Source: Amphibalanus amphitrite (lineage: Eukaryota > Arthropoda > Thecostraca > Balanomorpha > Balanidae). Taken from it: a DNA stretch of 64,000 nt. Of this stretch, positions 5,355 to 64,000 are shown piece by piece. The notes beneath the pieces were generated by a model. The model did no database searches. It was not told the DNA's origin and was given only the letters and a program-made list of their open reading frames with translations. Position numbers and translations under genes: made by a program. The stretch spans positions 1-64,000 of the forward strand of contig NW_024883052.1 in assembly GCF_019059575.1 (NCBI RefSeq). Direction: 5' to 3'. The stretch's first letter is position 1; each line of letters starts with the position of its first letter.

Positions 5355-5531
<177 letters not shown>

Positions 5532-11463: not shown

Positions 11464-11980
<517 letters not shown>

Positions 11981-17063: not shown

Positions 17064-17202
17064 CTTGAGATCCCGGTGCACGATGCTGTTGAGGTGGCAA
17101 TGGTTGACCGACTCGAGAATCTGCTGGATACAGTGAGACGCGTCCGCTTCACTGTAAAACTCCCGGGCGACGATATCTTCAAACAGTTCCCCGCCAGTCA
17201 CG
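17064..17202 (-). CDS. CaMKII: CaMKII coding exon 5 (helices D/E and HRD catalytic loop)
   Basis: This 139-nt exon encodes [10 protein letters not shown] through [15 protein letters not shown] and ends in phase 0 at Lys137. The acceptor is GTTTCGCAG and the donor GTAGGCGA, a weaker match to consensus than the other donors. HRDLK carries the catalytic base Asp135. The segment before it reads HLNSIVHRD, where related kinases usually have Gly in place of Ser. A decayed copy of the last third of this exon and its donor lies directly downstream in transcript direction (16977-17018). Confidence 0.95.
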
Positions 17203-18915: not shown

Positions 18916-18970
18916 AGATCAAAGACCAGGTAATGAAAGCTCTCTTCTTGGATACTGTCGTGAAGTCGTA
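18916..18970 (-). CDS. CaMKII: CaMKII coding exon 4 (beta-4/beta-5, hinge)
   Basis: This 55-nt exon encodes RLHDSIQEESFHYLVFD, completing Val73 at its start and opening Leu91 at its end. The acceptor has a strong pyrimidine tract ending GTTTCAG, and the donor is GTAAGTAT. The HYLVFDL stretch is the hinge region of the CaMKII kinase domain. 'EESFHYL' differs slightly from the 'EENYHYL' of flies. Confidence 0.96.
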
Positions 18971-31924: not shown

Positions 31925-31984
31925 CAATATTGGGGTGTTGGAGCTTCCGGCATATCCTGCCCTCGCGCTCCAACTTTTGAAAGT
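31925..31984 (-). CDS. CaMKII: CaMKII coding exon 3 (helix C)
   Basis: This 60-nt exon encodes FQKLEREGRICRKLQHPNI, completing Asp53 at its first bases and opening Val73 at its end. The acceptor is GTTTTCAG and the donor GTGAGTAC. It covers helix C, including the Glu that pairs with the ATP-binding Lys, and the HPNIV strand. Intron 2 before it is only about 0.9 kb, the shortest in the window. Confidence 0.96.
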
Positions 31985-32924: not shown

Positions 32925-33019
32925 CTCGTGCCGTCAACTTCTTGGTGTTGATGATTTTGGCAGCGAACTCCAGACCAGTGGATTTCTGCACACATCGCCG
33001 CACAATTGAGAAAGCACCT
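32925..33019 (-). CDS. CaMKII: CaMKII coding exon 2 (glycine loop and ATP-binding Lys)
   Basis: The acceptor is TTCACAG and the donor GTGAGTCC. The exon encodes [20 protein letters not shown], then [11 protein letters not shown] and the first base of Asp53. It holds the second half of the glycine-rich loop and Lys42 in the AAK motif, which contacts ATP phosphates in kinases. The length of 95 nt gives exact phase agreement with the exons on both sides. It is also in phase (2) with the alternative start exon at 44147-44292. Confidence 0.96.
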
Positions 33020-41669: not shown

Positions 41670-42080
41670 GTTGGAAACTAGACCTAGTGAAAAACAACCA
41701 CCAGTGACGGTAGGTACAATAGAAAAAAGGCGACGTAACGGTTCATTCACGCGACGAGAATGCTTAGTTGTGGCCATAGCATTTCACTACCGATGAATAC
41801 GATAGCTTGGACTGAAAGTGTTTCATGTCCATAGGTGCAGACAAGTTTTACCAACTTTTCATCGTAAAACAAGCGCAGCTGATTTAACCACCAATTTTCA
41901 GAGACGAGCTCATAACTTAAGCCCCCGACCAAAGCATCCACCTTATTATGTAGCCAGTGAAACAGATCTGTAAAATGCACATTCCATGACCAAACACCCA
42001 AAAATAAACAAAGCAGGGACCGATACTAGGGACCTGATGCGAGACAGCCAGGTGTCCTGTTGTTTGTCACATTGACAGCT

Positions 42081-42366
42081 ACCAGATGTGCTACAGAAGG
42101 GGCTGGGTTCAAAGTTCAAACATAGTTAGATAAGCCTTAGAGGGGCAAAAGCTCTGCAATAGCCAGATGTGCTAGAAGGGGCTGGGTTCAACATAGTCAG
42201 ATGTGCTACATAACAGGCAATAATCACATGTGTCAGAAGAGGCTGATTTCAAACATAGTCATATGTGCTACAGAGGAAGCTAGACTCTGCAATAGCCAGA
42301 TAAGCTAGAAGGGAACGGGTTCAAACATAGTCAGATGTGCTATGGAGGCCTGGATCTGCAACAGTC
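42081..42366 (+). repeat. Degenerate CAGATGTGCTA minisatellite
   Basis: Units of about 35-75 bp with CATAGTCAGATGTGCTA and GAAGGGGCTGGGTTCAAA motifs, five to six copies in CaMKII intron 1. Confidence 0.75.
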
Positions 42367-43574
42367 ACAAAAAAATCCCGAAAAAGTCAAAACGCCCACA
42401 GGCTCTGAGCTGAATTTAGAGCTTCACTATAACTTCCGCGACCTCATCGACCTCATCATGCCAGCTAACAAAAAAATGGACATATCTGTCATTTTGACAA
42501 TGATAAAACAGGGCGTCTATTCTTTAGTATCCTCTCATCAATCGTATCAATCCTCCTCTTGTCAATCGAACAGTGCGTATTACAATAGCCCACAGTGCTA
42601 GAAAAGCAAATGGGATATCAAACGCATTTAAATGAGACAAAGTGCCGGACTAATCGAACAATTAACAATCCACAGGAAACCCGGGCGGTAGCGGAGCTGG
42701 GAACCAAAACAGCGCGGAAATGGAGGCGATATGATCTAGTGGAAGAGGGGACCGCTAGGGGTAGGGGTTCACATGTGGCACAGGTGTTCGGACCGGGTGG
42801 CACAGTTGTTCGGGCCGGGTGGTACAGGCTGATGGGAGCGTATAGAAGAGGACCTCACCGGTGCGCTGAAATTTTGACAGGTGAACCGCTCACCGCTGCC
42901 TGTAAAATGCATCTGGCATATAATTTATGATGGAGAATTGAAATTAAGTGAGCGTGTATGAGGGTGTAAACTAATCGCTGTGCTTAGATGAAGAAGGCAA
43001 AGATACAAAACATTAAGCTTTCATATCATTCATTCGCTCATTTCGGGCTGCGGAGATTCCTCAAAGGAAGTCCAGCAGTGAATCACTGCATCATCTACAC
43101 AAATCATCCCTACGAACAAACTCTCCGGCGCCAAGTGAACACCATCCGGGAGTTCTCCATCGCGCCACTTCACGTCGCTCCCACACAGCGCTGCGCCGGA
43201 TATGTCGTCACAGAGTTTGACAGCGGTCTCGGGATTCCAGGAGCGAGAAGGTTTGAGAGTGGCAGGCACATGGCGATAGGAGGGCTTCAGCACGTTTATC
43301 ATACCAAACAGCGCACAGGATGCTGAGAAATTGTTCCAAGAAACGCAGAACTTGTGTTTCGTAATTTGGTCAAACTAGAACAGTTTATATAACAGATTCC
43401 AATAAAGATATACGGGAGTGGCTGTCTCTCTTGAAAAAGCTTGCATTCTTCTATGGACAGAAATGGGTGCATTCGTGTATCAAGCCATCAACTGATCACA
43501 CTAGCATACTAAATCATACGAAAGAAACCGTAACAGCCGCCACATGCCCGCTCGGTACCCACATAAATCACCAG

Positions 43575-43603: not shown

Positions 43604-44146
43604 CTGGCGACCTGAGGCAGCCGTGGAGTGGAAGGGGGACCGGGGAGGCTCGGGCGGCCCGCAATTATATCACCCCCGCCACCATAATTATCTCTAGCGT
43701 TTCCACAGTATGGCGTTGCTCGTGTGCAAGGCTCGGCCGACAAGAGGTGCCGGACACGTGCTGTTGCAGTACCTAGAGTGGGGAAGATGGAGTACGTGGC
43801 TCCGGTTGTAAACTTGATGCACTAGCCGACTTAAAATGCATGCCTGAGCATAAATGTGTGTTCACTCATTAACTAGGGAAGTTTTTAGTTAGGCTAGATA
43901 CATATTTCTTCAGAATTGCGTGTGATATAGCTCTCATTTATGATTTAATACAACTAAATCATCACAAAAAGTCATGCAACGAATAATTGTATGAAGTATG
44001 GTGATAGTATCAGCTAAATGAATTGTTCAGTACATTTATTTATGATTTAATGAATTCATTTACAAAATAGTTTGTCATACTTAATTTGAGACAAACACAA
44101 AAGCCTTTTTGCGGTGTTTCAGTTATCAGGTTGCAGCGATGCTTAC

Positions 44147-44292
44147 TTTCCGATGACGGCTCCGACGTCGTAGCGCGCTGCAAACTCTCCGCTCGGATTA
44201 TAGTTGGGCGCCTCCTTTGGCGATGGTTGCTTGGGCGATACCGGCGATTTTGGCGCCAAATCTGCCGCCGCCGAGGCCACGTGTGCGAACAT
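44147..44292 (-). CDS. Candidate alternative first exon of CaMKII with a kinase beta-1 strand
   Basis: On the minus strand an ATG (context GCGCCATGT) opens 48 codons. The leader is Ala/Ser/Pro-rich with SPK motifs (SPVSPKQPSPKE), followed by EFAARYDVGAVIG and two bases of Lys before a GTAAGC donor. The F-x3-YD-x5-GK spacing equals that of canonical exon 1 (F-SDN-YD-LKEEL-GK), and the phase (2) fits exon 2, so the join reads [19 protein letters not shown] box (CCAATCAG on the minus strand, 44351-44358) lies 59 bp upstream in CpG-rich DNA. The CAMK group shares this intron position (CASK, for example), so it could instead be the first exon of a nested kinase gene. No further kinase exon was seen between here and exon 2. 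The join is an inference. Confidence 0.55.
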
Positions 44293-44350
44293 GGCGCCAC
44301 CTATGTCAGGGTCGCACGCGCTGCTGGTCAAGGTCGCGCCAAGACGTATG

Positions 44351-44358
44351 CTGATTGG
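44351..44358 (-). promoter_or_regulatory. CCAAT box upstream of the alternative first exon
   Basis: CCAATCAG on the minus strand is 59 bp before the ATG at 44292, in GC- and CpG-rich DNA. NF-Y-type boxes usually sit 60-100 bp before transcription starts, so the position is compatible with a nearby promoter but close to the ATG. Confidence 0.35.
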
Positions 44359-45869
44359 CTAGAGATGTGAGGCAGGATGATATTGGTCGGTTGCTTGTCG
44401 ATGGCGTTTTCTTCAGGCTGGACGCAACGCGAGAGGCAATCAGGCAGATGCCGAAACGTAAATATATATGCCTTTTTCAACAGTTCAGCAGAAAAGATTA
44501 CAAAAAAAGACAGCTGTAGATTACGGCCACTGGCTTTGAAAGACAGAAACCGTAAAAACGATGGAAAATTTCGATGGCAGGATCAGAGAGCTTTGGAAAA
44601 ATTCTTATAAACTGCGGAAGCCATATAAGCATTAAAGAATATGTCGATTGTCAAAAGGATTCCTTTGTATCGAACTAGGGTTAGCTCTGTAGATGAATGG
44701 TGTTTGACTGAATGAAATGATTGACCACAGCAATACACTATGAGTTCTCCGTGCCTGTCGATATGGATATTGGACGTGAATGTGGCACTGATATGTAGAC
44801 AAATTTTGGAGTGGAGGGAAAAATACATGCTCAGTAGCGTTTGTTGAACGCAAAAAAAGTCAAATATAACAACCCTTGAATGTCAAACTGACGACAGTGG
44901 CGTAGCATTGAAAATGTAACGACAGCTGATAAGGGAACAAAAATACTAAAACGCTCATTCAACCAGAATATGCAGTGGCAGAACAGAAAACTGTCACTGC
45001 ATGTGTTAATGTCAATTGTTTTCTTATAGAGCAGAATACACGGCACCGTCCACTTATCAAACGTCTACGTCAAAAGACGCCAGACAGTACACTTGCAATG
45101 AGGACACATCGTGTGCGGTCTGACCGTGTCGCTCCGCAGACTTCGGGAAATTTTCGCCACAGTGTCTAGAAACATTCCAACATGCAGCACGACCGTGCAC
45201 GATATGACTGCAGCAGAGTTGGAAAATGTCGCACCCAATACCCGCAGCTAGACTTATACAAATGGTGTCGCGTGATCCGGACACTGTTCGATGGTGCAGA
45301 CAATTTATAGCTGGCAGACAGTCAGTCTCGTCGCAATGTCGAACTCTATTTACCCTCAGGCAAAAATCTTCATAGAGAAAAATCAAAGGACTTCAAGATA
45401 CAGCATTCTTACACGAAACGGCTGGTACCGGTATGCAATATGCATCATTTGGCGATCCTATTATGGAAATGATCAGTATTCCTGCCATAGCCACTTTTTG
45501 CCGTAACTTGCAGTCTAAGCAACTACACGGTGTAGAGGGTCTGGCCAGGTTGCGAGCAGCTAGACAACCGAGAAGCCTACAATGGACCCGCGCTTGACCA
45601 GTCACCTCGATATGAATCATGAACTCCCACGCGCTGATCTAAGCCGGATAGGGTGTTCGAAGGGTGGAGCATAAGTGAGTCACCAGAGCACGTTGGCTTC
45701 GTCAGGAGGTACGGGGAGTGTCCATGAGGAGAGCCTGCATATCCTTGGTTCAACTCACTTGCCATAGTTTTATGACAACTTGAAAGGACTTCACAGTGAT
45801 TGATTCGCTTTGCCCAATCGTAAATCAAAGAGCACGCTAAGCATACCCGTCCATGTCTCGTTCCGGCGA

Positions 45870-49954: not shown

Positions 49955-50016
49955 TTGCCAAGCTCCTCCTTAAGGTCGTAGTTATCGCTAAATTTCGTCG
50001 TAGTGCCGCTCGCCAT
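49955..50016 (-). CDS. CaMKII: CaMKII coding exon 1 (canonical start)
   Basis: This exon encodes MASGTTTKFSDNYDLKEELG and the first two bases of Lys21, then a GTAAGTG donor. It carries the start of kinase strand beta-1 and the glycine-rich loop (LGK, followed by GAFS in exon 2). The ATG has a good context (ACGATGG). The exon ends in phase 2 and joins the 'A' that opens exon 2 to restore Lys. Family knowledge: CaMKII proteins begin with a short variable leader and then [RK]FSDNYD-type sequence, so this is the canonical initiating exon. The 5' UTR is not delimited. No convincing splice acceptor lies directly upstream, so the UTR is probably continuous with the promoter region around 50.1 kb. 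Confidence 0.95.
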
Positions 50017-52955: not shown

Positions 52956-53931
52956 CTTTAACCCTCGCCGGAACAGGCCATTTTGCGTTCTTCGACGGCA
53001 CAGCCACCCCCCCCCCCTCGCGTTTGGCCCATGATCGAGCTAGGCAGGGGTTGGCAAATGGTGGGGCATGCCCCCTTTGGGGGTAATGAAACCGCTCGGC
53101 GGGGGGTAATGAGGGCCTCTGAGAAAGCCTCATCTTAGAACCAATGGCTCCCTTGATGGGACAGACATCACGACTGTTTGGTCCCAGGGTTCAAAGATAA
53201 AATCACTGGCCGAACGTCAACCGACGACCGTCTATTGGCGTTTTCACAGCAGCTAACGTAAAGGGGGAGAACTAGGAGTCGATCGGCCCCTGCAGCCTCT
53301 CGGCCTCTGAACTGGAGCTTTTCGGTAAAAAAAAAAAAAACGAGCGTACTACCCGTGACGATAGGAAGCCGCTGCTACCCAATTTGAAGTTCCTTGGCCA
53401 TGGGGTGACTTTCAGGAGGTCAATGACGATTTTCGAGATGATTGAGACCCGCTGTAACTTCTTGAATTGATATGTTATGGCCTAACATGATCTCAAGGAA
53501 GAACTAACAAGTCAACGGTTATTTGTGTCAAAGCCATGAAATGTTTTAGGGTAAAAAATGATCGGCTCGAGAATACAATTCTGCTGTCATTTTGACACAT
53601 CTAAGTACACTTTCAGCTAGATCCTGACCAGTGATCGGCCCTATATATTCAGATTTCAGTCTTATATGTCGGATATATCGTGAGGAAACCCAGGGACGTA
53701 AATCTATAATTGGGTTTCTGACGTCACTGTGACGTCATTTCAAGTGAGATCGACACCAAATTTTAACACAACCTCGGCTAGGTATTTAGGGAAATGTGTG
53801 CAAAGTTTCGTTTCTCTATCTCTTCGCGTTGCGACGATATCGTCGGAAAAGTAAGGGGGCAACTATGTGCCCCCCCCCCCCCCCCCCCAGCGGCTGGCGG
53901 GTGGCGCGGAGGCCCAGCGGCCGCAGGGTTA
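52956..53931. mobile_element. TTAA-type element, second copy
   Basis: It starts TTAACCCTCGCCGGAACAGG and ends CCCAGCGGCCGCAGGGTTAT, where the final TTAA is mutated to TTAT. A G5/C19 hairpin precedes the right end. The interior (53330-53440 and the AAAGTTTCG...GCGACGATAT block near 53800) recurs at 58460-58570 and 59200-59240. Confidence 0.55.
53870..53888 (+). repeat. Poly-C run, the longest of many
   Basis: 19 C. Other runs of 13 or more C or G: 8355-8370, 13345-13359, 16238-16251, 19383-19397 (followed by CA repeats to about 19411), 23541-23553, 30774-30788, 40449-40462 and 51898-51911. Confidence 0.95.
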
Positions 53932-62366: not shown

Positions 62367-63613
62367 CAGTTTGCTGTAATCTTTATAATACTCGTACAAG
62401 CGTGCTTATTTTAGTGACTAGCGGGCTATAGCTATCAGGTATTATAGAGCGTGGTTAGAGTTACCACTGTTTGCGCTGTTCTCTTCTCTGCTGATATATT
62501 TTTTGCGTACTAGCTCTTAGTCGTACTTTTGCGCAGTAAGCTGTTAGCTTCACGCTATGCAAGCATTTCCACTAATAACATCTTTGAACCGTGACCACAG
62601 CGCCTGGCATCTGGACTCTGAACAGCTCTCTGCATAAGTTATCAGTGAACCGTGAGGCCTGACCGGCGCGGGGTTAAACCGTGGTTCGAGACTGGAGAGT
62701 GTGATGGCATTATATGACGTTTTCAGAGCAGCACCGTGTTGCCAGTAGAATCTGTCACGGTGTCGTTTTGAGCCGCTTGTGTGTGTGTAAAATAGGACAA
62801 ACAGCGACTGTAAACTACTTCTGAAAACAAACTGGGAATGCTGCTCTGGATGCGTGTCAATGTATTCCTGCCCGGGGCCGGGATGATTCAATGTAACCGA
62901 GGTTTTTAGTGAAAACTCGGAAGGCCGTTAGTCCCGAGCCCCAAGGTGCTTTTGCTAAAAAAGCGAAGTGACATCTATTGAATTCCCGGCCTCAGGGCTG
63001 GATGGTGTTTCCCATACCTGCCAAAAAGCTCACTAGTACCTATATGATAGTGACATCCATAGGGTGACATCAGCAGCCGTGTGGTTCAACGTGTTAAATC
63101 ACGCCCCTTGAACCAAGATTACTACAACATAAGGTTGGACAAATCGTGACGTCACGGGTGCTTGGAATATTTGTTTAGTATCCAACTAGACAGTCATAGT
63201 GATAGTTTAAACTAAATTGATGGCATAAATCCTATATAATACAATTTCTTAAAAGCTGCGCCTACAAATTACTGAGAGAAAGCTCGTCAGACCCTTCTTT
63301 TTTTGCTTGCTAACATTTTATAGGGAGAACGATTTTTTAGTATGAGCATAAAACAGCTAAGCTGGAATAAACTATACTTTGCCAGATAGCAGTGAATTGA
63401 CGCTGCGGCGACATACAACGGTTGATTGATAAACAACTTGTGGTTGCTAAGGGCGCTTCCGTGTCGTTTATACGATCCTCTCTAAGATTCTGTTTAAGAT
63501 TGGCTGTGTAATGTAATGTAATTTGTGGAATATATTTGATGATTTAATTTCTTTATACCTTGGGGACATTGTAAAATTGAAATCCGTGAAGTGCACGAAG
63601 CAGGTAGGTAGGT
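62367..63613. other. Region before the THAP gene
   Basis: No gene recognised. There is a CGCGGGGTTAA near 62665 that resembles a TTAA-type end without a partner, and a TGACGTCA at 63147. Confidence 0.6.
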
Positions 63614-63924
63614 ATGCGTTGCCTGGTACCCGGGTGCCGTAATGGCACTGGCTCTGGTGATTTACATCCCCCTGGATTAATAATGCATAGAGTACCGAAG
63701 GATCCAGGGAATGTGGCTTCCTGGATGAAGGCTGTGCGGCTACAAGCTAACCAAACTCCTAGCAATGCGTGTTTCTGCTCCATCCACTTTAAACCAGAAG
63801 ACTACGATCGAGATTTGAGATTTGAACTCAACCCGGGGAAGTGTGTCGCGGACAACCCAAGACGTCGCCTGACTAAAACAGCAGTGCCCTCTCTCAACAT
63901 TCCTGAAAGTGAACACAATGAAAG
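63614..63924 (+). CDS. First exon of a THAP-domain protein (continues beyond the window)
   Basis: THAP domains are C2CH zinc-coordinating DNA-binding modules found in transcription factors and in P-element-type transposases. The exon encodes 103 residues and two bases before a GTAATT donor. The signature is complete: Cys3 and Cys8, the HRVPKDP segment (25-31), Trp37, Cys55-x2-His58 followed by Phe, and an AVPS form of the closing AVPTIF motif (90-93). The ATG at 63614 is natural because the first zinc ligand is residue 3, as in most THAP proteins. A host gene and a domesticated or mobile transposase cannot be separated, because the remainder lies beyond 64000. Confidence 0.88.
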
Positions 63925-64000
63925 GTAATTTACCATTTGCTCTTATTTTCATCATTTTTTTTTTCACGAGTTCTGTTTATGTAGCCTACACGGCGGCGCC

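Follow-up and report, generated by a model that had tools for sequence, protein, structure and literature searches.

A candidate alternative first coding exon in intron 1 of the CaMKII gene of Amphibalanus amphitrite

We found that an open reading frame in intron 1 of the CaMKII gene (44147..44292, minus strand) is, on the evidence of its sequence, probably a real alternative first coding exon of that gene. The stretch of DNA that was analysed, 64,000 nucleotides long and hereafter called the window, contains the first seven CaMKII coding exons, and the candidate lies on the same strand as these, upstream of exon 2. It comprises 48 codons plus AA, MFAHVASAAADLAPKSPVSPKQPSPKEAPNYNPSGEFAARYDVGAVIG(K). 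The original prediction of a second start frame in this intron was confirmed as an observation, and its interpretation was partly supported.

CaMKII is a memory-related kinase whose diversity has been studied mainly through the variable linker; its kinase N-terminus is generally taken as fixed. For CaMKII exons other than those of the linker, one published account describes alternative splicing as uncommon, and it attributes alphaKAP to an alternative promoter of mammalian CAMK2A (PMC5882894). The arrangement proposed here is similar, in that a CaMKII gene would use a second promoter to alter the N-terminal part of what it encodes. It differs in that alphaKAP is without a kinase domain, whereas the candidate product would keep all of the kinase but the first strand. 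AlphaKAP is a precedent for promoters inside CaMKII genes. Among the publications listed by literature searches, mostly outside subscription journals, none showed an alternative N-terminus for the CaMKII kinase. If the reading holds, an internal promoter that supplies another kinase N-terminus would give a further means of controlling where, when or how actively subunits work in mixed holoenzymes.

The candidate exon and its place in the gene

The seven CaMKII exons run on the minus strand from 50016 down to 5426, as mapped by tblastn with a Drosophila CaMKII sequence and by checking of the boundaries. The coding part of canonical exon 1 (49955..50016) reads MASGTTTKFSDNYDLKEELG plus AA and is followed by GTAAGT. 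Exon 2 (32925..33019), which supplies the shared acceptor, begins with A GGT GCT TTC directly behind TCACAG. Further downstream lie exon 3 (31925..31984, (D)FQKLEREGRICRKLQHPNI), exon 4 (18916..18970, (V)RLHDSIQEESFHYLVFD(L)), exon 5 (17064..17202), exon 6 (11511..11613) and exon 7 (5426..5509). Later exons match a second allelic contig pair (C1770:4626-54532 and C1854:91707-44411). Of 87 matches scored, those at least 65% identical to fly CaMKII all fell on two allelic contig pairs, as for one gene. The break falls within the gene in both haplotypes, after exon 7 and before the exon that follows. At 17033-16977 on the minus strand, the exon 5 frame runs on into a degenerate second copy of the exon 5 end, which is most like a decayed partial tandem duplicate.

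The candidate sits in the 16.9-kb intron 1. Its frame opens with an ATG at 44292-44290 and closes with ...FAARYDVGAVIGK and AA at 44147; the adjoining donor is GTAAGC (the GT of AAA|GTAAGC at 44145..44146, minus strand). This is a phase 2 junction, equal to that of canonical exon 1, so that both exons rebuild an identical Lys codon, and F-x3-YD-x5-GK is present in both; the candidate completes this kinase motif at a position equal to that in exon 1. The predicted phase and spacing thus agree with the canonical exon. In a six-frame scan of the window, F-x3-Y-x6-G[KR] occurred in two places, canonical exon 1 and the candidate. Scored with a simple matrix, the candidate donor reached 3.53 bits, a score attained by 1.1% of the 1105 GTs of intron 1. 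Six other CaMKII donors, those of all exons but exon 5, gave 0.95 to 7.62 bits, a span that includes the candidate.

Two other frames are also open across most of the same bases, so the open frame alone is no evidence for an exon. In simulations with an order-3 Markov model of the window (8710 windows of 64 kb, both strands), F-x3-Y[DE]-x5-GK arose 208 times, once with an in-phase GT[AG]AG donor and never with an in-frame ATG as well. A looser motif with a donor arose nine times, again never with an ATG. Because the candidate sits in a G+C-rich part of the window, we trained another model on the 136 segments of the window whose G+C content is 52-62%; the 8094 windows simulated from it contained 78 motifs, none of them with a donor. 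The candidate is very unlikely to have arisen by chance, and the phase and spacing claimed for it go beyond chance expectation.

These counts bear directly on the view that the candidate is a chance open frame in G+C-rich intron sequence which ends like a kinase start by accident. That view draws on the openness of the other frames, on the behaviour of the peptide alone in database searches (below), and on the post hoc choice of the candidate by a reader of 64 kb. It is opposed by the near absence of motif and in-phase donor from both sets of simulated windows, and by a further likeness to CAMK-group N-termini upstream of the motif; we judge it improbable.

First-exon status, promoter signals and the allelic contig

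The frame upstream of the ATG is open back to a stop at 44361-44359. Within this segment, AGs at 44351, 44324 and 44321 would yield an in-frame exon of 204, 177 or 174 bases, and an AG at 44301 would yield a 154-base exon that shifts the frame as a cassette. Used as a cassette exon behind exon 1, the in-frame version would add 58-68 residues at the glycine loop. The pyrimidine tracts (16 bases) of the three in-frame AGs score 0.50-0.63, as against 0.69-0.94 for the acceptors of exons 2-7. Because these tracts are poorer, and because a cassette would duplicate the first strand, we prefer a first exon to a cassette, and the candidate is likely to be a first exon.

A promoter of its own had also been proposed for the exon, from nearby sequence signals, and here the evidence is weak. 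The CCAAT-box-like site exists (44352..44360, minus strand, ~60 bases upstream of the ATG), but such sites number 11 in the window against 10.98 expected. CRE pairs are likewise present, but the closest (43575, 43596) is downstream of the candidate and another (45870, 45900) is ~1.6 kb upstream. The CRE palindrome, TGACGTCA, occurs throughout the window (13 observed against 0.91 expected), spread out and often paired 11-30 bases apart; these palindromes may belong to a dispersed repeat family. Further pairs were seen at 53719/53730 and 58154/58165. The CCAAT and CRE sites, being at chance level and window-wide respectively, were set aside as support. The ratio of observed to expected CpG over the candidate plus 300 bases upstream is 1.1-1.4, at about the 80th-96th percentile of the window. 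The TTTGGCGCCAAA palindrome, which we take to be E2F-like, does lie inside the candidate coding frame (44249..44260), and it was present in 1 of 100 shuffles. None of these signals shows a promoter, most being at chance level or window-wide.

The other haplotype is represented by contig C1264. To the left of 41930 in the window, its aligned blocks longer than 1 kb share 92-96% identity; substitutions between the contigs amount to ~4-5% over 42000-43555, and differences remain dense up to 43554. From 43555 to 64000 they are nearly identical; a single difference, at 44496, lies between 43555 and 47000. This segment matches the end of C1264 (~63600-84054); the contigs are ~4-8% apart up to 43555 and then nearly identical for 20 kb, with a sharp edge. 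A homozygous or collapsed block explains this pattern. As the candidate lies in the identical block, the C1264 copy is not independent and is no test of constraint, and its identity was discounted as support.

The same edge raises the question of an assembly artefact, in which a wrong join would have been made near the candidate, at the point where the haplotype contigs stop differing. The edge is at 43555 and the near end of the candidate is ~590 bases beyond it. Against a wrong join, exon 2, the candidate and exon 1 stand in equal order on both contigs, the window is free of any run of N, and the homozygous or collapsed block accounts for the pattern. An artefact of this kind is very improbable.

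Resemblance to other CAMK-group kinases

Taken alone, the 49 residues encoded by the candidate matched no Pfam family, and a PDB search returned nothing sensible and no kinase. Joined to exon 2, the peptide gave CaMKIIs as its best PDB matches, with the score coming mostly from exon 2. We then compared the candidate with 27 N-terminal kinase segments. The best partner was CAMKV, with a score of 51 that none of 30000 shuffles equalled; NYNPSGEFAARYDVGAVI of the candidate and NYNQPSEVTDRYDLGQVI of human CAMKV are identical at 10 of 18 positions without a gap. PHKG2 (43), UNC-43 (38), PSKH1 (37), DCLK1 (30) and Drosophila CaMKII (29) followed, and human CAMK2A was further down the list (20, p 0.20). 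Canonical exon 1 scored 76-77 against fly and worm CaMKII. By sequence, then, the candidate looks like the start of a CAMK-group kinase and is no obvious duplicate of exon 1. Its origin may differ from that of exon 1, because its residues are nearer to CAMKV and PhK-gamma than to fly CaMKII.

The candidate shares with the canonical N-terminus of Drosophila CaMKII and C. elegans UNC-43 its gene, strand, splice phase and an F-x3-YD-x5-GK ending at the glycine loop; it differs in having 36 residues before the F rather than 8, and AVIGK in place of EELGK. The proposed leader of 48 residues is accordingly correct as the residue count of the exon, but the leader proper is these 36. EEL, which is conserved in CaMKII before the glycine loop, is absent from the candidate, where AVI takes its place. 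This bears on the likeness to canonical exon 1 and not on the splice partner, and it lowers confidence without excluding a CaMKII exon. With CAMKV the candidate shares NYN-x7-RYD-x-G-x-VI at exact spacing, but human CAMKV reads VIKTEEF at the glycine loop, whereas the candidate would join GKGAFS. With phosphorylase kinase gamma (human PHKG2) it has EF-x3-YD-x3-VIG[KR] and an equal intron position in common, but the PhK-gamma gene of this genome has a first exon of its own on C62.

Whether the exon could belong to another kinase gene was examined by tblastn of the window with sequences of CaMKII, CAMKV, PSKH1, CASK, PHKG1 and CAMK1, and with an HMM of these six. CaMKII exons were the only ones confidently found, and no other convincing kinase exon was detected in the window by these searches. 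Weak HMM scores went to the degenerate copy of the exon 5 end, to the candidate (E 2.2) and to a frame in intron sequence (42983-42858, E 1.2). The test reaches its limit with short exons, and canonical exon 1 itself gave E 0.42. The intron frame scored better than the candidate but lacks all the catalytic residues, and it was discarded. Across the genome (807,550,619 bases in 2644 contigs), the 49 residues matched the window and its allelic contig C1264 only, at E values up to 10. No relatives were found in viral and prokaryotic contigs, and Rfam and tRNA searches gave nothing useful.

CASK, PhK-gamma and PSKH1 were rejected as owners of the exon. CASK and a PhK-like gene, which had been named as possible rivals, both have first exons elsewhere: CASK starts on C354 (DDDVVFDDVYELCEVIGK|GTAAGT) and PhK-gamma on C62 (...VFYSKYEPKEVLGR with its own donor). 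PSKH1 starts on C921/C1613, with AKYDVKALVGRG and the loop in one exon. A CaM kinase I gene was recognised from pieces on C969/C1354, its start not being located.

There remains the idea that the candidate belongs to, or survives from, another CAMK-group kinase (the likeliest being CAMKV-like) whose first exon landed in CaMKII intron 1 and whose splicing to CaMKII may or may not persist. The CAMKV likeness described above, top among the 27 segments, speaks for it, and tblastn of CAMKV against the window picks out the candidate, with an E value of just 0.093. CASK and PhK-gamma also have an intron at the identical position. On the other side, CAMKV exons past the first were not found in the window by tblastn. 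Of 121 genome-wide matches to CAMKV, 30 were taken as loci and compared back with six kinases. CAMKV ranked first in 2 of the 30; these two are allelic copies of a single locus, at which CAMK1 scores an equal 79 bits. At four loci (L021, L022, L033 and L036), the CAMKV score nearly equals the CAMK1 score; from their alignments we presume these to be doublecortin-like kinase. The first 71 residues of CAMKV had no genome match at E values up to 10, which proves nothing by itself. We regard such an origin as unlikely, though the least unlikely of the alternatives to a CaMKII exon.

The proposed product

On the favoured reading, an alternative first exon of CaMKII, transcription would start in intron 1 upstream of 44292 and translation at the ATG at 44292, and the exon end at 44147 would be joined to the start of exon 2 at 33019, 11.1 kb away. 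No in-phase kinase acceptor nearer than that of exon 2 was found downstream, so the expected subunit is a CaMKII whose leader and first strand are new. In this subunit, residues 1-20 would be exchanged for 48 others, giving an Ala/Pro/Ser/Lys-rich leader and the first beta-strand RYDVGAVIGK in place of NYDLKEELGK. From GKGAFS onward, the kinase and then the regulatory segment and hub would be unchanged. Given what is known of CaMKII biology, the unchanged regulatory segment and hub suggest that such subunits could co-assemble with normal ones.

The likeliest role would be that of a differently expressed isoform, whose leader might alter location or be regulated by proline-directed kinases. The leader contains three Ser-Pro sites of the minimal proline-directed kind; a full S-P-x-K/R site does not occur in it. 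A bolder extension, which we consider improbable, is that the CaMKII gene has two promoters, the second serving a start exon akin to that of a CAMKV-like kinase and acquired through shuffling at an intron position that is ancient and shared; holoenzymes from this one gene would then contain two kinds of N-lobe.

Two further features of the window lie outside the CaMKII coding exons. Between 55500 and 57300, long open frames of a short repeated unit occur on both strands (FDIL.. on one; NIEK../SKYR.. on the other), apparently an AT-rich satellite-like array in inverted arrangement. At 63608-63928 on the plus strand, an open frame contains a THAP domain (Pfam PF05485, E 2e-14).
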